Virus record (IMG/VR): IMGVR_UViG_3300043464_002022 | Coordinates: 1-20,507 of that record | Direction: 5' to 3' (one strand) | DNA: 20,507 bases | DNA from: a virus | Shown: one piece after another, positions 919-12,731 of the stretch | Position numbering within the stretch: the stretch's first letter is position 1 | Layout: the number at the start of each line of letters is the position of its first letter | The notes under the pieces: generated by a model | Seen by the model: only the letters and a program-made list of their open reading frames with translations | Databases searched by the model: none | Told to the model about the DNA's origin: nothing | Program-made: the position numbers and the translations under genes

Positions 919-1623
919 TTATTTTTTTAAAATTGGGGAAATAAATCCGCGTTCCCCCTCGGACACAAACATTGAATGTCTATATGTATTTGACAGATGT
1001 CCAACTACTATCTTATTATCCGATATAAATTTCATCAACGGGTGTACCGTATTGTTCCAATCAAAAATATCAACCCATTTATCTGGTGAATAAACTTCTT
1101 CTTCCCTGTTCAAGGTCACCAATGATAAATCAAACTTACCGCCAATCTTTTGTAACAAAGAAGGTTTAAAGAACTCACAACTTCCCCGAAGCCAACCAAC
1201 AGGGTCACCGCACGAATTAGAAAGTATTTCCCAATCGCCGTCCATAAAGTGAATGATATTCCCAAACCATTTGTAGTTATGAATAAAATTGTCATCATGC
1301 GTAAACAAAAGCAAATCGTATTCCGTGAAATTATGTTCCTCCAGCCATTGATTTGAACAACCCCAATCGCCAACGGTGTTCGGGTATTCTTTGTAATTCC
1401 AACCTAAGTCTTTAATCTGCTCAATCGTTGCAATTTCTTTGTAAAGCACGGTGTCAAATTCCTTTAATGCCAATCCCTTTTTTTCCTCCTTTGAATACTT
1501 TGGGTCACGGTGTGAAATGCAAAATAAATTATACTCCCAATCTTTGACAACGATTTGCCGTGCTACTGAATCATAGAAATCTAAGGGGAAGTGCCAACCT
1601 GAGGCAACAACGGCTAATCTCAT
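919..1623 (-). CDS. Putative GT-A-fold glycosyltransferase (234 aa)
   Basis: 234 residues from the ATG at 1623. The N-terminus (MRLAVVASGWHFP) starts with a beta strand. Around residues 103-112 is DLLLFTHDDN, a hydrophobic strand ending in an acidic cluster, as in the DxD metal/nucleotide-sugar site of GT-A glycosyltransferases. A GDWGCSNQWLEE segment lies just before it (85-96). No signal peptide or membrane helix is seen, so it should be cytoplasmic. The start overlaps the methyltransferase stop by four bases (ATGA), placing it firmly in the glycan operon. I do not recognise a named family; it could also be a fold relative without transferase activity. Confidence 0.65.
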   Translation of the reverse strand: MRLAVVASGWHFPLDFYDSVARQIVVKDWEYNLFCISHRDPKYSKEEKKGLALKEFDTVLYKEIATIEQIKDLGWNYKEYPNTVGDWGCSNQWLEEHNFTEYDLLLFTHDDNFIHNYKWFGNIIHFMDGDWEILSNSCGDPVGWLRGSCEFFKPSLLQKIGGKFDLSLVTLNREEEVYSPDKWVDIFDWNNTVHPLMKFISDNKIVVGHLSNTYRHSMFVSEGERGFISPILKK

Positions 1624-2159
1624 AACATTAAGGATAAAGAGGGAAAGTCCTCGTTAATTGTAATAAAGTTTAAACCAGATGAATTGATAGGTTGAAAATC
1701 TTTCATCCATTCGACTTTGTCCCTTTCCTTGCTCCCGCCTTCAAATAAAATTGAGCCGTTTAAAAAATGATATTCCTTTAAACTTTTTAAATACTTTAAA
1801 TGCCCCGCGTGGTTGCTTATATCAAAGTGCATCAAGTCAAAAGGTTCGGGTTTCCAATTATAAAAATCCCATTCAATCAATTCAATATATTTTGTTAAGC
1901 CAAGTTGGTCGATGGTGTTCTGTGTTTTATCCATCGATGTATTTTTGTAAGGGTACTTTTGCCATAGGTCATGGCACATGATGACGGTATCGCTATCTAA
2001 GTCCCTTAACGCCTGAGCCATTGCGACGGCTGAATAACCGTGCAACGTGCCAAACTCAATGATTATATCGGGATTCATTGTAAGCACCGTATTGTAAAGG
2101 GTCTTACCGATGTTATTCTTATAATAACTTGATGGTATATCGTAGTTAAAATATGCCAT
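1620..2159 (-). CDS. Class I SAM-dependent methyltransferase (methyltransf_24-like)
   Basis: 179 residues from the ATG at 2159. The frame stays open further upstream (to 2207), but that extension would run through the coding sequence of the lysine-rich neighbour in another frame, so the shorter start is chosen; it overlaps that gene by 14 bases. Motif I is clear: IIIEFGTLHGYSAVAMAQAL, an ExGxxxGxS SAM-binding loop, followed by an acidic/His strand end (VIMCHDLW) and DLMHFDISNHAGH, typical of small class I methyltransferases that modify sugars or other small acceptors. Placed between glycosyltransferases, it most likely O- or N-methylates a sugar of the same glycan, though a nucleic-acid or protein target is not excluded. 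Confidence 0.78.
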   Translation of the reverse strand: MAYFNYDIPSSYYKNNIGKTLYNTVLTMNPDIIIEFGTLHGYSAVAMAQALRDLDSDTVIMCHDLWQKYPYKNTSMDKTQNTIDQLGLTKYIELIEWDFYNWKPEPFDLMHFDISNHAGHLKYLKSLKEYHFLNGSILFEGGSKERDKVEWMKDFQPINSSGLNFITINEDFPSLSLML

Positions 2160-2328
2160 TAATCTTTTTTTGTTTGTTTGCCTGATAATTTGCTTTTCTT
2201 TTAGCAAGTAATTCAGCCTTTTTTTCAGGCGTTAAGGCATTGTATTTATTCCTCAAATATTCCAAATACTTTTTTTTCTGGTATTCGCTTATTGTTTTCC
2301 TGTATTCTTTTTTTCTTTCAGCATTCAT
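2146..2328 (-). CDS. Lysine/arginine-rich small protein (60 aa)
   Basis: 60 residues, almost entirely helical and very basic (for example RKKEYRKTISEYQKKKYLEY and PEKKAELLAKRKANYQANKQ), with regularly spaced Tyr and Lys. The composition and the TPEKKAELLAKRKA pattern resemble the plus-strand protein at 10121-10393 (TPEEKAKRKEANREQY), so the two are probably related. Such proteins are common in Bacteroidota phages and are thought to bind nucleic acid, but no function is established. It starts two bases after the SSB stop and overlaps the methyltransferase start by 14 bases. Confidence 0.6.
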   Translation of the reverse strand: MNAERKKEYRKTISEYQKKKYLEYLRNKYNALTPEKKAELLAKRKANYQANKQKKINGIF

Positions 2329-2330
2329 AA

Positions 2331-2714
2331 TTAGAAAGGAAATTCTGATTCTGATTTAAATGTCGTTGCTTCTGTTACCTTTGGATTTTCCCCTGTTGTT
2401 GGCTTGCCTCCAAATTCAAGAGAATTTACCATGCAGCGAATGACAGCTTCGGCTGCACCAGTATTCTTGTTTAGGTATCCATTCACCCCGCCTGTTCCTT
2501 CCACGACCACAAATGTACCTTTTACAATATGAGGCGCAAGTTTGACACCACGTTCACCCCAAATTGAACAAGTAACCCAAATCGTCTTTTCTCCTTGCAC
2601 TTGACCGTAAACCCTTTCAGTGTGTGCTACGGAAAAAGAACAAACGGTATTATCGCCAACATTTTTTACCTCAGCGTCCTGACCGACGCGACCACTTACG
2701 ACTAATTTAATCAT
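2331..2714 (-). CDS. ssb: Single-stranded DNA-binding protein
   Basis: 127 residues. The N-terminal ~105 residues form an OB fold of the bacterial SSB family: MIKLVVSGRVGQDAEVK, then SFSVAHTE, TIWVTCSIWGERG and a VVVEGTGGVNGY strand. The end, ESEFPF, is an acidic tip with a terminal Phe, equivalent to the DDIPF tail by which SSBs recruit replication and repair proteins. Length is shorter than cellular SSB, as usual for phages. It coats single-stranded DNA during replication or recombination. It overlaps the upstream 73-residue gene by ATGA. Its place in the middle of a glycan-modifying operon, 3 kb and one strand away from the replication genes, is unexpected. Confidence 0.92.
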   Translation of the reverse strand: MIKLVVSGRVGQDAEVKNVGDNTVCSFSVAHTERVYGQVQGEKTIWVTCSIWGERGVKLAPHIVKGTFVVVEGTGGVNGYLNKNTGAAEAVIRCMVNSLEFGGKPTTGENPKVTEATTFKSESEFPF

Positions 2715-2932
2715 GCTTTTGTTTTTAAAAAGTTATTATAAATATCTTGAAGCTTTACTATTTTTTTATTTGCACTTCTTTTATATGATTTTTGAATATT
2801 TGATAATTCAATTATTTTGAACATCATTTCAAAACCACCAACTTCATTAATTCCTATTAATTCAATAAAATATTTATTAGGTCTTTTTGTGTATTTGTGT
2901 AAATATTCAACTAATTCTTTAGTAATATCCAT
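2711..2932 (-). CDS. Hypothetical protein (73 aa)
   Basis: 73 residues, start ATG at 2932 immediately after the aminotransferase stop (TAGATG arrangement) and stop overlapping the SSB start by ATGA. Predicted helical, with a basic C-terminal half (IQKSYKRSANKKIVKLQDIY). It is noticeably more AT-rich than its neighbours on both sides. No domain recognised. The tight coupling to SSB suggests co-translation; a role with SSB is possible but unsupported. Confidence 0.6.
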   Translation of the reverse strand: MDITKELVEYLHKYTKRPNKYFIELIGINEVGGFEMMFKIIELSNIQKSYKRSANKKIVKLQDIYNNFLKTKA

Positions 2933-4042
2933 CTACCAACCTTTTTTTATCTGTTCAACAATATATTCCCTGTCCTCGTCCGTCACCCACCAACCAACTG
3001 GAAGGCTTGACAACTTGCCAATTACCTTTTCAATGTTTGGAAGTTCCGTTTTAAATTGCTTTACGCACGGGTGTAAATCGTTTCGCTCATGAACTTGCGA
3101 AGTCATTACACCACGTTCTTTCATTGCCCTTTGAAAATTGTCCCTGTCCTCAACCAAAATTGAATAAATCCAATATGATGAGCCTTCGTCGTAATACAAA
3201 GGGGTTATAAACCTACTATTTTCATTTAACCACCAGTCGTAAAAACCAGCATTATTTTGGTGTCTTCTAACATTATCCCCAAATATTTTAAGGTTCTCAA
3301 TCCCAATGGCGGCGTTGATGTCGTTCATGTGGAATTTATAACCCCAATCGTTTATCGGTGCTTCGCATCTAAAATCCTTTCGGTCACCTTCCCTGTCAAT
3401 GCCATACCAACGAAGTAACTTTGCCTTTTTATATTCTTCCTCATTTGGTAAAACCAACATTCCACCGTCACCCGTGGTAAGGTGTTTTATTGCCTGAAAG
3501 GAAAAGCAACAGTAATTTCCTGAGTTCCCAACCAATGTACTTTCGTCTTTAGTGGCTGGTAATTCGTAATATGAGCCAAAGGCGTGTGCGCAATCTTCGA
3601 TAATATCAAGCCCCGTTAATGACTTTATTTTCTTTACGTCTGCTGCTGCACCTCCCCAATGGACAACCATAACCGCGGCAACCAAAGGAGTAATAGATTT
3701 AGCCACCGATAAGGGACAAATATTTAAAGTGTTAGGGTCAATGTCTGCCCACATTATTTCGAACCCAGCCGCAAGTATCGCCCAGTTGGTTGCCGTGCAA
3801 GTCAAAGGAGTTGATATAATGTATTTCTTTTCGGGGTGTTTGTCCTTAATTATTCTTAAAGCAAGTTGCAAAGCGCTTGTCCCTGAGTTGACCGTAACAA
3901 GGTAAGGATTATTGAAGCTTTGCTTTAATTGGCGTTCAAACTCCTCCACCACTTCACCCTGACCAATAAAGCCTGAGGATAAAACTTTGTCCACGGCTTT
4001 TGATGCCTCTGGATTCATGGCAACTTTAAATAATGGTATCAT
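2933..4042 (-). CDS. DegT/DnrJ/EryC1/StrS-family PLP aminotransferase
   Basis: 369 residues, the usual length for the family. Fold type I PLP enzyme signatures are all present: NSGTSALQLAL (52-62), the EDCAHAFGS segment (149-157) whose Asp contacts the pyridine nitrogen, and SFQAIKHLTTGDGGML, in which K186 is the Schiff-base lysine. These enzymes transaminate keto-sugars on nucleotide carriers, for example making 3- or 4-amino-deoxy sugars from glutamate. The start overlaps the preceding glycosyltransferase by ATGA. No dehydratase or nucleotidyltransferase that would make the keto-sugar is visible here, so the substrate may come from the host or from genes left of the window. Confidence 0.92.
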   Translation of the reverse strand: MIPLFKVAMNPEASKAVDKVLSSGFIGQGEVVEEFERQLKQSFNNPYLVTVNSGTSALQLALRIIKDKHPEKKYIISTPLTCTATNWAILAAGFEIMWADIDPNTLNICPLSVAKSITPLVAAVMVVHWGGAAADVKKIKSLTGLDIIEDCAHAFGSYYELPATKDESTLVGNSGNYCCFSFQAIKHLTTGDGGMLVLPNEEEYKKAKLLRWYGIDREGDRKDFRCEAPINDWGYKFHMNDINAAIGIENLKIFGDNVRRHQNNAGFYDWWLNENSRFITPLYYDEGSSYWIYSILVEDRDNFQRAMKERGVMTSQVHERNDLHPCVKQFKTELPNIEKVIGKLSSLPVGWWVTDEDREYIVEQIKKGW

Positions 4043-4740
4043 TTAATGTGGTTTGCATGATTTATAAAATATTTATTTCCCTCGTTTTCAAACGGCGTCC
4101 CGATATATTTTGAACAGTTACCTTTTAAGATTGCAACCTTTATTCTTTCCTCGTAGTTCCAAAGGACAAAAGGAAAAGAAATCTGGTCACGGCTGGAAAA
4201 CTTGCAGACTTGTTCAAACCAAGCTAAACCAAAATCAATCGTAATTTGATTCACCTTCCTGATATAACACCCCATTTCATATAGCCCAAAATAAGGCGGC
4301 ATTCCAACCGATTGATAAAAATTCATTTGACTTTTTACAAGGTCTTCATTGTCTAACTTTGCCTCAAGCACGGCGGCTATTTCTTGGTATAAACAACGTC
4401 TTTGGGCATGGCGGAAAAGATACAAATCGGCGTCGCCGTATTCCTTGATTATTTCTTCGGGATGGATTGCCAGTTGGTGTGTTCCATCATGCCATATAAT
4501 GTAATCAAAGTCAATCTTTAAAGCCTGAGGAATGCAAAGTATTTTTTCAGCCTTTGCGTTTCGTCTGTGCTTCAACGGGTCAATCATGCTAAACTGATGA
4601 TTCTGGACTTGATTCCAAACATTTAGGTCATGGTTAACTTCATCGACAAAAGCAAGGTAAGTACAATTATCAAAGGTCGTCTCAGGGTCAACCAGTATGT
4701 CTTTGTTTCCAGTAATTGAGGTAATAATCAAATAGTTCAT
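4039..4740 (-). CDS. TOD1/MUCI70 (DUF616)-type glycosyltransferase
   Basis: 233 residues, first gene of the minus-strand operon. The core matches the DUF616/TOD1-MUCI70 glycosyltransferase pattern: DPLKHRRNAKAEKILC, FDYIIWHDGTHQL (Asp in place of a DxD strand end), LYLFRHAQRRCLYQEI with the His-x-x-Arg-x-Cys signature, and SRDQISFPFVLW near the C-terminus. Members transfer hexoses in plants and occur in bacterial capsule and LPS loci. It has no signal peptide. The start codon lies only a few bases behind a TATATTTG -7 box, so its mRNA may be almost leaderless. The acceptor is unknown; a phage or cell-surface glycan is the likely target. Confidence 0.78.
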   Translation of the reverse strand: MNYLIITSITGNKDILVDPETTFDNCTYLAFVDEVNHDLNVWNQVQNHQFSMIDPLKHRRNAKAEKILCIPQALKIDFDYIIWHDGTHQLAIHPEEIIKEYGDADLYLFRHAQRRCLYQEIAAVLEAKLDNEDLVKSQMNFYQSVGMPPYFGLYEMGCYIRKVNQITIDFGLAWFEQVCKFSSRDQISFPFVLWNYEERIKVAILKGNCSKYIGTPFENEGNKYFINHANHIK

Positions 4741-5154: not shown

Positions 5155-5445
5155 ATGATGCCCAAAAATTACATCACTTACAAAGGGAAAGAAAGAACTA
5201 AATTATTTAGAGAAAATTTTCCTTTTTATCCTATTCCAAAACAATCTGATACTTGCGTTTGCATTCATTGTATGGAATTTTATGAATACAAAGAAATACA
5301 AGTCAATGAATCCATTAAGGGCGATATTTGGCTTATGTGCCGAGATTACCCAGAATGCAATGGCAGTATTATAGATGCAATGAAAACAACTAAAGAAGAA
5401 CTTGAGCAATGGAAAATTAGCGCTCCAAACTTATTTGGATTATGA
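5155..5445 (+). CDS. Cys-rich, zinc-ribbon-like small protein (96 aa)
   Basis: 96 residues from ATG 5155 (a second ATG follows at 5158). A TTG-initiated extension to 5056 was refused because it would translate the terminator hairpin. The centre carries two cysteine pairs, CIHC and CRDYPEC, about 35 residues apart, with the spacing of a zinc ribbon; the second knuckle (YPECNGSI) recalls topoisomerase-type C4 fingers, which also read YPxCxG. It may bind DNA or RNA. Stop and start of the next gene overlap by ATGA. First gene behind the attenuator-like leader, hence probably an immediate-early gene. Confidence 0.65.
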   Translation: MMPKNYITYKGKERTKLFRENFPFYPIPKQSDTCVCIHCMEFYEYKEIQVNESIKGDIWLMCRDYPECNGSIIDAMKTTKEELEQWKISAPNLFGL

Positions 5446-5924
5446 AAGAAATACAATTAACTCAAGGCAAGGTCGCGCTGGTAGACGATGCCGATTACGA
5501 TTATTTAAACCAATGGAAGTGGTGTGCAAATAATAAGAATGGAAAATTTTATGTAGTAAGAAATATTACAGTATCTAAAAATAAACAAAATAGTATTTTT
5601 ATGCATAGATTTATTATGAAACCTGATAAAGGTATGGTTATTGACCATTTAGATGGAAATCCTTTAAATAATCAAAAAAATAATCTTAGAATATGTACTC
5701 ATGCAGAAAATATGAGAAATTCTAAAATATCTATAAATAATAAAAGTGGGTACAAAGGTGTTTCTTATCAAGAAGATAGGAATAATTATAGGGCTTCAAT
5801 TAAATTTAATAATAAAAAAATAAATATTGGAGATTTTATCGACCCAATCGACGCCGCCCGTGCCTACAACGACGCCGCCATAAAATATCATGGAGAATTT
5901 GCTAACTTAAATAAAATTGATTAA
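5442..5924 (+). CDS. HNH endonuclease with C-terminal AP2 domain
   Basis: 160 residues. Central HNH_3 nuclease: MHRFIMKPDKGMVIDHLDGN (54-73) with H55 and D68-H69, then NNQKNNLRICTHAENMRN (76-93). C-terminal AP2 DNA-binding domain from about 101 to 157: SGYKGVSYQEDRNNYRASI and the helix DAARAYNDAAIKYHGEFANL. This is the classic phage free-standing homing endonuclease architecture: cut a recognition site and spread by repair. Base composition is patchy: most of the gene is very AT-rich but 5838-5880, coding for the AP2 helix, is strongly GC-rich. Overlaps the previous gene by ATGA and ends two bases before the next start. Confidence 0.9.
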   Translation: MKEIQLTQGKVALVDDADYDYLNQWKWCANNKNGKFYVVRNITVSKNKQNSIFMHRFIMKPDKGMVIDHLDGNPLNNQKNNLRICTHAENMRNSKISINNKSGYKGVSYQEDRNNYRASIKFNNKKINIGDFIDPIDAARAYNDAAIKYHGEFANLNKID

Positions 5925-5926
5925 TT

Positions 5927-6904
5927 ATGAAGAACTTATTAATACAATTAAACCAACGCCCAATCGCGGTTTACCCTATTTATATAAAGATAACTGGAAG
6001 CGTGAACGCTGGATTATTGCTTAGTCAATTAATGTATTGGTATGGAGCAATGAATGGCAGAATATTTTATAAAACTGATGCTGAAATAATGGAAGAAACT
6101 TGTCTTTCTGAAAGTGAACTAAGAACAGCAAAGAATAAATTAAAGTCAATGTCATTTATAGAAATTAAAGCTAAAGGAGTTCCAGCAAAAACTTACTATT
6201 CTATAAATGCTGAAAAGTTGATTAGTGAAATTCACAATTTCAGTTCCGCGAAATCAACGAAACTGAAAACGCGAAATCAACGAAACAGTAATAGCGAATT
6301 TAACGAAACTATTACAGAGAATACAACAGAGAATACTACAAAGAATACAACAGATATTTATTTTGAAAACGAGTTTTCGACATTTGAAAAAATTACAATT
6401 GATGAAAAGCAAAGTTCCAAAGTAAACCCGTTTACTATTGTTTCTAATTTGCAAGGAGAGAAAGAAGAAAAGAAAAATTCCGCGAAAAGAAAAGAAGAAA
6501 GCGAGCCAAAAGCCGAGCGCAAACCAAACCCGACCTACGAAGCTTTCACCGTGTTTTGCCAAACCTTTGAACAGTTATCAGGCGCGGCGTACCCGACTGA
6601 CCAAAAGGGACATTATATCATGAGTCCGAAAGATGCTGGAGGCATGGTATATTTGTTGCGTTGGCTTGAGAAGGTTGACAGGAATAACGATACAAATGAG
6701 GCATTAAAAGTATTTTTACAAGCCGCTTGGTCATTGCCTGACAAATGGTTAAAAGCAAATTTTACTCCAGCTATTTTATACGGACAGGCGGGAAAAATAT
6801 ACACGGCTTACCAGACGTCTTCACCAGCGGCAAAGAAAAAAGCGTATGACGATGAAGTTGACAGGCTTTTGGCTGAGGCTATGAAGAAATATCAAACACA
6901 ATAA
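5927..6904 (+). CDS. Phage replication initiator-like protein with internal iterons
   Basis: 325 residues. The N-terminal part (about 20-95) looks like a winged helix: GLLLSQLMYWYGAM, FYKTDAEIMEETCLSESELR and a wing ending in TYYSIN, the pattern of phage replication initiators and replisome organisers. A polar linker (105-200) includes the tandem NTTE/NTTK repeat. The C-terminal part (about 205-325) is helical, with WLKANFTPAILYGQAGKIY, close to the ends of lambda O/DnaD-like proteins. Three 23-bp-spaced iterons and an AT-rich 12-bp tandem repeat lie inside the linker-coding DNA, as in lambda O, which strengthens the call. It should bind the origin and recruit the helicase loader or helicase. 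No polymerase or helicase is visible in the window. Confidence 0.75.
   Translation: MKNLLIQLNQRPIAVYPIYIKITGSVNAGLLLSQLMYWYGAMNGRIFYKTDAEIMEETCLSESELRTAKNKLKSMSFIEIKAKGVPAKTYYSINAEKLISEIHNFSSAKSTKLKTRNQRNSNSEFNETITENTTENTTKNTTDIYFENEFSTFEKITIDEKQSSKVNPFTIVSNLQGEKEEKKNSAKRKEESEPKAERKPNPTYEAFTVFCQTFEQLSGAAYPTDQKGHYIMSPKDAGGMVYLLRWLEKVDRNNDTNEALKVFLQAAWSLPDKWLKANFTPAILYGQAGKIYTAYQTSSPAAKKKAYDDEVDRLLAEAMKKYQTQ
6248..6309. repeat. Three iterons, candidate replication origin
   Basis: GCGAAATCAACGAAAC at 6248-6263 and 6271-6286, and GCGAATTTAACGAAAC (two changes) at 6294-6309. The period is exactly 23 bases, not a multiple of three, so the copies encode different peptides (AKSTK, RNQRN, SEFNET). 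The DNA rather than the protein is therefore conserved, as expected for initiator-binding iterons. Confidence 0.7.
6314..6355. repeat. AT-rich 12-bp tandem repeats (possible unwinding element)
   Basis: ACAGAGAATACA, ACAGAGAATACT, ACAAAGAATACA and a partial ACAGAT follow each other without gaps, five bases after the third iteron. In frame they encode TENTTENTTKNTTD. Placement next to iterons matches the duplex-unwinding region of iteron origins; a simple protein linker repeat is the alternative. Confidence 0.55.
6421..6436. repeat. Palindrome AGTAAAC-CC-GTTTACT
   Basis: Perfect 7-bp arms with a two-base centre, just downstream of the iterons and AT-rich repeats. Contains the same GTAAAC/GTTTAC half-sites as the inverted repeat at 4821-4857, here closely spaced. 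Confidence 0.5.
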
Positions 6905-6916
6905 AAACCAACCAAT

Positions 6917-7651
6917 ATGAATTTACCAGCTATTGCAATGAACATCGAGGAAAAGATACAGGATATTCAACTTGTTATCGACAATCGAGATAAAAGACTT
7001 TTTAAAACGGGTATTGTGGAATCTTTACCCAAAATTAACCAAGTCGTAAAACAAATCCTTCCCCTGTACGGCATTGATGCAAGTCCAGAACATTTGGTTG
7101 AGGTGACTCAGTTTATTACCACTTACAAATTAATCGCGGTTGATGAAATAAAACTTGCCTTTGAAAAGTTTGCACGGCAAGAATTGAATATTGATGACCA
7201 TAAGTTATACGGCAAAGTTGATTTGGCTGCCATTGGGCGAATCCTTACCGCGTATATCAACTGGCGGCAAAAGGTTTATTTTACCGTGGATATGGAAGAT
7301 GAAAAGAAACGAGCAAAGATGGAAGAAGAACAAAGGCAAGTCGAGGCAAAGCGCAAGTTTTACGAAGAATTTCCCGAAATGTTAAGCGGCTTTAAGGGTG
7401 AATCATACGAAGACGTTCCCGTCTATTGGTACGACGCCGCAATGGAGGCTGGGTTAATCGGTTACGCCGAAGGGGAAAAACGAGCCATCTGGGAAGAGGC
7501 TCAGGAAATAGCAAAGAAACAAAAGATACAAGCAGACAGTTACATTGACTTTAAAACCCAGTTGCATCGGGTTGAAGAAGAAGGAAAAAAGCGGGCAATC
7601 ATCATAGCGCAAAAGTTGGCGGTCTGGAGGATCGTTTTAAATAAGAAATAA
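6917..7651 (+). CDS. Conserved-looking phage protein after the initiator (244 aa), possible helicase-loading partner
   Basis: 244 residues, start ATG 6917 behind an ACCAACCAAT leader. N-terminal ~125 residues are helical with a FITTYKLIAVDEIKLAFEKF segment and a K(V)DLAAIGRILTAYINWRQK segment, a pattern I associate with replication-region proteins of Bacteroidota phages. From about 128 there is a strongly charged coiled-coil (DEKKRAKMEEEQRQVEAKRK), then mixed alpha regions. No Walker A motif, so it is not a DnaC-type ATPase. Position 12 bases after the initiator corresponds to lambda P, so a helicase-loading or adaptor role is plausible but rests on context only. A terminator follows 24 bases downstream, ending this operon. 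Confidence 0.65.
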   Translation: MNLPAIAMNIEEKIQDIQLVIDNRDKRLFKTGIVESLPKINQVVKQILPLYGIDASPEHLVEVTQFITTYKLIAVDEIKLAFEKFARQELNIDDHKLYGKVDLAAIGRILTAYINWRQKVYFTVDMEDEKKRAKMEEEQRQVEAKRKFYEEFPEMLSGFKGESYEDVPVYWYDAAMEAGLIGYAEGEKRAIWEEAQEIAKKQKIQADSYIDFKTQLHRVEEEGKKRAIIIAQKLAVWRIVLNKK

Positions 7652-7675: not shown

Positions 7676-7707
7676 GTGGGAAGTATTTTATTTCCCACTT
7701 TTTTTTT
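7676..7707 (+). terminator. Intrinsic terminator after the replication genes
   Basis: Stem GTGGGAA (7676-7682) / TTCCCAC (7692-7698), 9-base loop, then nine T. Textbook shape; the T-run merges into the repeated promoter-like element that follows. Confidence 0.88.
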
Positions 7708-7716
7708 AAAATAATG

Positions 7717-7765
7717 TTGTAAATATTTTTTTATTACAATATTTATTTATAAATTTACATATTGA
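7717..7765 (+). promoter_or_regulatory. Repeated 49-bp promoter-like element, copy 1
   Basis: Starts TTGTAAATATTTTTTTAT and ends TAAATTTACATATTGA. Both blocks are identical to the copy at 10672-10720, with a diverged middle of equal length; a third copy is at 12104-12152. Including the T-run and the AAAATAATG before it, 36 consecutive bases (7699-7734) equal 10654-10689. TTG to TAAATTTA spacing is 30, longer than a normal Bacteroidota promoter, so a phage-specific promoter or operator is likelier. The gene at 7788 begins 22 bases later. Confidence 0.6.
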
Positions 7766-7787
7766 TTAAAACAAAAAACAACCAATC

Positions 7788-8072
7788 ATGACAAATTTTA
7801 CAGATTTTTTAAACACATTAGGTTCTTCAGATTTGGAAAGCCTACAAATTATTTTAAATACATATAATGAAGATTACGAAATTAGGTCTAACGACATTGA
7901 AGACGTTGGATTTAATAAGTTTTCTGGATATGTTTGGTTATTACTTGAAAACGGAATAACCATTGTTAGTTGCTTTGGTCAAAGCGCAGAATTTCTGACA
8001 ACAGATAATCGTGGCAATGAAATATTTCACGACACTTATTACGAAGCTACTAATCATTTATTAGGAGTTTAA
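7788..8072 (+). CDS. Hypothetical acidic protein (94 aa)
   Basis: 94 residues, first gene behind the promoter-like element, start ATG 7788 with an ACAACCAATC leader. Acidic, mixed alpha/beta, with ESLQIILNTYNEDYEIR and a hydrophobic GYVWLLLENGITIVSCFG core. No signal peptide and no domain recognised. Small acidic early phage proteins are often host-takeover or anti-defence factors, but nothing in this chain shows it. Confidence 0.6.
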   Translation: MTNFTDFLNTLGSSDLESLQIILNTYNEDYEIRSNDIEDVGFNKFSGYVWLLLENGITIVSCFGQSAEFLTTDNRGNEIFHDTYYEATNHLLGV

Positions 8073-12085: not shown

Positions 12086-12103
12086 CTTTTTTTTTATTTA
12101 TTT

Positions 12104-12152
12104 GTGTAAATATTTTTTTATGTAAATATTTATTTATAAATTTACGAACCGA
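12104..12152 (+). promoter_or_regulatory. Repeated 49-bp promoter-like element, copy 3 (diverged)
   Basis: GTGTAAATATTTTTTTAT, then ATGTAAATA and TAAATTTACG, with the same 30-base spacing between the first block and TAAATTTA as copies 1 and 2. It follows a T-rich stretch after the glucosaminidase stop, but no hairpin is visible there. The rest of the gap to 12194 is an A-rich leader. Confidence 0.5.
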
Positions 12153-12194: not shown

Positions 12195-12731
12195 ATGGAA
12201 AAGAATTTCACCAACACCCAGTTTAAATGGACGTTTGAAAGCATCAGCGACAACATTCCAACGATTATGCTTTTGACAATAGTATTAACCTACGGGGTTA
12301 ATGCTTATTTAACTGCCATTTTTTTACCGATTAATTTTTGGGTTGCAATTACCGCTTCCACCATTTTACAACTTGGACGATTTGCAGTCGTTTTCATGGA
12401 CTTTTTAAACCCTACTAAGGGAAGAAGCCCTTTCCCGCCTAAAATAGCCTTAGGCGCAACGGTAATAGCGTTAATCGAAGTTTTCTTCGGGTTAATGGAA
12501 AAGTATTCTGGAAGCGAATTTATAACCATGTTCTTTTTTGTTGGAACAATCGTATGTTTTGGCTACCTTTTGGAAATAAACTTTGTTAACAAAGGGGTTG
12601 AAGCATACGGTTTAGTTGAGCCAAAAGTTATCAAAAGACGCAAAAGAAGGGTTGTTGTAAAAAAAGTCACGGAAGATGCACCAAAAGAAAGTAAGGGTTA
12701 TGTAACTTCGTTCCAAACGATAACACTTTGA
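12195..12731 (+). CDS. Four-helix membrane protein (178 aa), unknown
   Basis: 178 residues with four hydrophobic spans at about 22-43, 46-68, 83-101 and 108-128 and a strongly basic tail after residue 143 (VIKRRKRRVVVKKV), which points to a cytoplasmic C-terminus. The tail could bind nucleic acid or acidic lipids. No enzyme motif. It may be a holin-like or superinfection-exclusion protein; a second holin is already encoded at 14615-15019. Stop overlaps the resolvase start (TTGA). Confidence 0.6.
   Translation: MEKNFTNTQFKWTFESISDNIPTIMLLTIVLTYGVNAYLTAIFLPINFWVAITASTILQLGRFAVVFMDFLNPTKGRSPFPPKIALGATVIALIEVFFGLMEKYSGSEFITMFFFVGTIVCFGYLLEINFVNKGVEAYGLVEPKVIKRRKRRVVVKKVTEDAPKESKGYVTSFQTITL

Follow-up and report, generated by a model that had tools for sequence, protein, structure and literature searches.

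Why should three copies of a 16-bp sequence recur at a fixed spacing inside the coding region of a phage replication gene? The question is raised by bases 6248–6354 of the linear virus record IMGVR_UViG_3300043464_002022, whose whole 20,507-base stretch is referred to here as the window. The segment lies in the linker-coding part of a gene for an O-like replication initiator (Table 1), and an initial annotation had read it as a lambda-like origin. Our analysis leads to much the same answer: 6248–6354 is very probably the replication origin of this phage, placed within the gene of its own initiator, with the N-domain of the protein reading the site, the AT-rich DNA opening, a helicase being recruited, and N-domain and site passing between phages as a cassette. 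Comparison with 116 related genes lends good support to the lambda-like origin as a reading of sequence.

Table 1. Features of the initiator locus and repeats of the N-domain types
Feature	Position	Strand	Repeat	Basis
O-like replication initiator gene, 325 aa, containing the putative origin	5927–6904	+		PHROG 9773 'replication initiation O-like', E 2e-27; 35 homologous loci
N-terminal winged-helix domain, residues 1–107, predicted iteron reader, type A of six	5927–6247	+		AlphaFold2, Foldseek
Iteron 1	6248–6263	+	GCGAAATCAACGAAAC	Repeat, shuffle and mismatch scans
Linker codons, predicted disordered, residues 111–189; hold most of the iterons and AT tract	6257–6493	+		pLDDT <50
Iteron 2, identical to iteron 1	6271–6286	+	GCGAAATCAACGAAAC	Repeat, shuffle and mismatch scans
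Iteron 3, 2 changes	6294–6309	+	GCGAATTTAACGAAAC	Repeat, shuffle and mismatch scans
AT-rich 12-bp tandem array, putative DNA unwinding element	6314–6354	+	encodes TENTTENTTKNT	TRF score 68
Right-hand junction range of the exchangeable cassette	6338–6397	.		DNA alignment with the window resumes in genes of another N-type
C-terminal helical domain, about residues 200–325, common to all six N-domain types	6524–6904	+		AlphaFold2, homologue searches
Probable partner gene, 244 aa, with a putative lambda P-like role	6917–7651	+		Follows the C-domain in nearly all loci
Type A repeat			23 bp, GTGAAATCCACGAAAC	
Type B repeat, weak			24/23 bp, TTCA-ATGAAG	Few genes pass
Type C repeat			16 bp, CCGNCACGG-centred	
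Type D repeat			22 bp, ACCAAAAGGG-centred	
Type E repeat			23 bp, CGAAAACGGGAA	
Type F repeat			22 bp, CGGAAATAAATCCG	

Repeats within the initiator gene

The three iterons follow one another at start-to-start distances of 23 and 23 bp, exactly the period first described, and together they form the top-scoring tandem repeat of the window (TRF 86). With up to 3 mismatches allowed, the 16-mer is found at only these three sites in the window, where 0.22 would be expected by chance. Each copy is also read in a different frame, as had been proposed (AKSTK, RNQRN and SEFNET; offsets of 0, 2 and 1 mod 3 from the ATG). These observations bear on the possibility that the repeats merely reflect a low-complexity, repetitive linker in the protein and do nothing as DNA. 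Such a reading would fit the disordered and repetitive character of the linker (TENTTENT), as well as the 12-bp array, which is in frame with the initiator codons. The iterons, by contrast, are mutually out of frame, and synonymous-codon shuffles preserving the protein and its codon counts fail to reproduce them: the observed triple score is 44/48, against a null mean of 29.1 and maximum of 39, with 0/3000 shuffles reaching 44. This null is conservative, since part of the repeat is dictated by the amino acid sequence itself. Periods of 16, 22 and 23 bp moreover recur among relatives, each tied to its own N-domain type (see below), and a by-product of the linker is extremely improbable.

The AT-rich array likewise appeared where it had been placed, with 3.4 copies beginning 4 bases past iteron 3. 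As the array is in frame, its period alone is, unlike that of the iterons, uninformative on selection at the DNA level, and selection on the peptide could maintain the AT repeats. In type A genes, AT content averages 72% over the 70 bp past the iterons, and only 8% of gene windows are higher. No DnaA box (TTWTNCACA) was found near the iteron region. Elsewhere in the window, an AT-rich 16-bp tandem repeat (TATTTATTTATGTAAA, 2.7 copies) occupies 12089–12144, in the gap before the ORF at 12195–12731, and extra overlapping BLAST matches from relatives at 7697–7795, just past the partner gene, suggest short repeats there.

Two other features were dropped as origin evidence. The palindrome reported at 6421–6436 is present (AGTAAAC-CC-GTTTACT, with perfect arms and a 2-base centre), but it was rejected as an origin element for want of conservation. 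Relatives retain the peptide KVNPF with codons that break the inverted repeat, for example AAGGTTAATCCTTTT in loci L005–L007 and AAAGTAAATCCTTTT in L016, and the palindrome is therefore best regarded as a by-product of this conserved peptide. Single-strand folding of 6300–6440 was no better than that of shuffles (z -0.23). The GC-skew minima lie ~2–4 kb from the iterons and coincide with switches of gene strand; skew was accordingly set aside as uninformative, neither for nor against an origin.

Domain architecture, partner gene and known systems

With respect to the protein, AlphaFold2 predicts the N-domain with a pLDDT of about 78–98 and the C-domain as a confident helical unit. The iterons and AT repeats fall in the codons for the end of the N-domain and the linker, and this layout bears out the earlier placement of the site between winged-helix and C-terminal domains. 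Foldseek searches with the N-domain gave weak winged-helix matches (E 0.1–0.25, probability 0.93–0.99), including the Rep–DNA complex 5kbj and the initiator 4pt7. The initiator had no convincing match in Pfam, where just two weak ones below the cut-off appeared at E ≤ 1, and it also matches further PHROG families, of replication or unknown function.

We infer that binding, melting, helicase loading and initiation would all take place at 6248–6354. Specifically, the winged-helix N-domain would bind the three iterons, ~2.2 helical turns apart, and the resulting nucleoprotein complex would open the adjoining AT-rich repeats. The C-domain, probably together with the 6917–7651 product, would then recruit the DnaB helicase, presumably that of the host, as a search of 15 related records of 16.6–41.2 kb (whose completeness is not certified) gave no DnaB helicase domain.

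With few exceptions, C-domain loci of every N-type (139 loci, some of them duplicates) have the partner gene downstream of the C-domain. Its product gave no known fold, no PDB match by sequence or fold and no functional family, the only family match being to PHROG 26016, of unknown function; its identification as lambda P was rejected, finding support in neither family nor fold searches. In a variant of the main explanation, which retains the origin itself, the C-domain would instead recruit the host primase, much as the C-domain of pSK41 Rep recruits the primase DnaG (PMC5703833), and the downstream gene would be unrelated to helicase loading. Besides this RepA_N precedent, the variant is in keeping with a C-domain not detectably related to that of lambda O and with a downstream protein of no recognisable fold. 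The constancy with which the downstream gene accompanies the C-domain nevertheless suggests a functional pair, though the two belong to one operon, and we hold primase recruitment to be a serious but doubtful substitute for the helicase step. As a separate observation, in one relative the initiator and the partner gene are separated by a gene of 250 aa (L003:3369–4121) with SFSGGRSSAMMAKIM near its start, whose product looks, judged by eye, PAPS-reductase-like; a gap of equal size, ~800 bp, is present at this point in several relatives.

In terms of known systems, winged helix, iterons, AT-rich tract, C-terminal domain and conserved partner gene together reproduce the lambda O–P order, and the claim of a lambda-like layout inside the initiator gene is to that extent supported. 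In lambda O, the N-terminus reads the iterons and the C-terminus contacts P. The features shared with lambda, and with P22 gene 18 and the Stx phages, are mid-gene iterons beside an AT-rich tract, an N-terminal DNA-binding domain and a partner gene immediately downstream. A triple scan of lambda gives a lag of 23, the annotated iteron spacings being 20, 24 and 23, and lambda O homologues in the phage collection often match over one half of the protein alone, either N (to ~residue 157) or C (from ~176). There are also clear differences. The window has three iterons of unrelated sequence, in contrast to the four 18-bp iterons that accompany a 38-bp AT-rich part in ori-lambda (39034–39160, within gene O; PMC3349717) and the six of Stx phages (PMC7466680). 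Furthermore, neither the C-domain nor the downstream gene of the window is detectably homologous to the lambda O C-domain or to P (hhalign probability of 1.4% for the C-domains), so that 'lambda-like' holds for architecture and not for orthology.

A second point of comparison is provided by the RepA_N replicons of staphylococcal plasmids such as pSK41 and pPR9, in which a winged-helix N-domain binds boxes located centrally in the rep gene, the ori encodes the linker and the C-domain is conserved within genera (PMC5703833). The window shares this arrangement of N-domain, ori-encoded linker and C-domain, and 5kbj is among the Foldseek matches of its N-domain. The RepA_N domain itself (Pfam PF06970) had no match in the window initiator, and RepA_N proteins belong to plasmids of Gram-positive hosts; in the group of the window phage, six N-types share one C-domain family. 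The type A N-domain is also carried by O-like initiators of Acinetobacter, Vibrio, Salmonella and Staphylococcus phages (38–47% identical over ~90–100 aa), with 22–23 bp repeats in five of six tested. These phages differ in having C-domains unmatched by the window protein, and some neighbour a gene for a DnaB-like helicase or DnaC-like loader.

N-domain types and their repeats

The relatives comprise 116 distinct genes collected by whole-protein, C-domain and N-domain searches, the C-domain loci being the best 80 of 156. Among them, one C-domain family is joined to six unrelated N-domain types, five of which have their own significant iteron motif and period, type B being weak (Table 1). The repeat of each type is located at the junction of N-domain and linker. 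Three of the N-domain clusters match Pfam HTH_36, and replication initiation families of PHROG are matched by five N-types, that of the window included; the matches of type F are confined to families of unknown function.

Motif and N-domain are inherited together. Motif A is confined to type A genes, 23/24 of which have it, and the own-type motif is present in every gene of types C (27/27), D (11/11), E (5/5) and F (2/2), no motif turning up in more than 2 genes of other types. The exact own-type spacing is seen in 23/24 genes of type A, 27/27 of C, 7/11 of D (top-three hits), 5/5 of E and 2/2 of F. In reading these figures, it should be borne in mind that the genes scored for their own type also served to build the motif matrices (cross-type exclusivity and exact spacing were not built in), and that the genes are related to each other, so that counts are not independent events. 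Within the wider type A N-domain cluster, a lag of 23 is best in 49/56 genes and extreme (≤2/200 shuffles) in 42/56, and it holds with N-domain identity down to ~50% and with unrelated C-domains; repeats are weaker in one sub-group (L004, L069, L071, L075, L100 and L107). The same lag emerges from lambda O, Staphylococcus phage 37, Salmonella 118970_sal3 and two Vibrio phages, and Acinetobacter TRS1 has a lag of 22. Overall, the expectation that iterons would persist while the linker protein drifts was confirmed in the relatives, where period and motif stay with the N-domain while linker and C-domain differ. A clear triple repeat was not seen in several genes combining a lambda-O-type C-domain with other N-domains, and a tandem repeat universal to lambda-O-type C-domain genes was rejected given its absence from Erwinia 59 and Bacillus 022DV001. 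Earlier accounts of the 23-bp spacing or of these phages may have escaped our literature search, which covered open-access papers.

Co-inheritance of this kind indicates that the N-domain reads the site and leaves its purpose aside, and is as such compatible with an operator through which the initiator represses or tunes its own transcription from inside the gene, the origin lying elsewhere. The site is, however, >300 bp inside the gene, and an AT-rich stretch adjoins the iterons in four of five tested types, the 70 bp past the iterons of type D not being AT-enriched. The layout also matches those of the proven ori-lambda (PMC3349717) and of pSK41 rep (PMC5703833). Taken together, these points make an operator very unlikely. 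In two type B genes (L084 and L113), 16/17-bp AAGTATTAACCA repeats lie out of frame past the iterons, at ~bases 370–420 of the initiator gene, and are possibly the AT-rich unwinding tract of that type.

Exchange of the N-domain and its site

The distribution of N-types over C-domains indicates which part of the protein the iterons accompany. In 158 gene pairs the C-domains are at least 95% identical yet the N-types differ, in 188 the N-type is the same yet the C-domains are <60% identical, and the nearest C-domain neighbour has the same N-type in only 24/76 genes; the iteron therefore goes with the N-domain and not the C-domain. Genes of other types align with the window only from their right-hand junctions onward, roughly at the end of the AT repeats, and the left junction lies at ~5924–5952 where upstream DNA is alignable (L010, L017, L023, L026, L029 and L031). 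The junctions thus bracket an exchangeable cassette of start codon, N-domain, iterons and AT tract.

As site and reader are adjacent within one gene, they would be swapped as a single cassette, from the start codon to the end of the AT tract, between phages that retain the C-domain and partner gene. Such exchange has a precedent in pPR9, a natural chimera in which ~500 bp (N-domain and ori) were replaced by a phage-like HTH domain (pfam13730), the C-domain remaining >97% identical (PMC5703833). The design of an origin within its initiator is already known from lambda and RepA_N plasmids, and the present phage group is unusually rich in natural exchanges. This metagenomic group, with six natural N-types on one C-domain and a clear cognate repeat for five, offers a ready source of probably orthogonal initiator–origin pairs and a natural experiment on which domain of the initiator reads the origin. 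Out-of-frame repeats of 23 bp (or 16/22 bp) in the linkers of O-like genes could likewise serve as a simple origin finder for uncultured phages.

An HNH endonuclease gene with a weak AP2 match (5442–5924) lies directly upstream of the initiator, a position occupied by an HNH gene in 13/71 relative loci, with each of the six N-types represented; the enzyme could promote exchange of the cassette. A broader proposal is that these phages, probably of Bacteroidota hosts, carry a ~430–455 bp mobile origin cassette, swapped again and again because selection favours escape from competition or interference when phages with a common origin infect the same cell, perhaps with the help of HNH, and that the 23-bp spacing is a general geometric rule of this initiator class; we consider this unlikely as stated. 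A genome scan for the host gave a lone match, to a contig of a Chitinophagaceae MAG, which was judged too little for host assignment. Finally, a minus-strand cluster around an SSB gene (919–4740) encodes a DegT/DnrJ/EryC1 aminotransferase, a TOD1/MUCI70 glycosyltransferase-like protein and a methyltransferase, an apparent sugar or surface-modification cargo of the phage.
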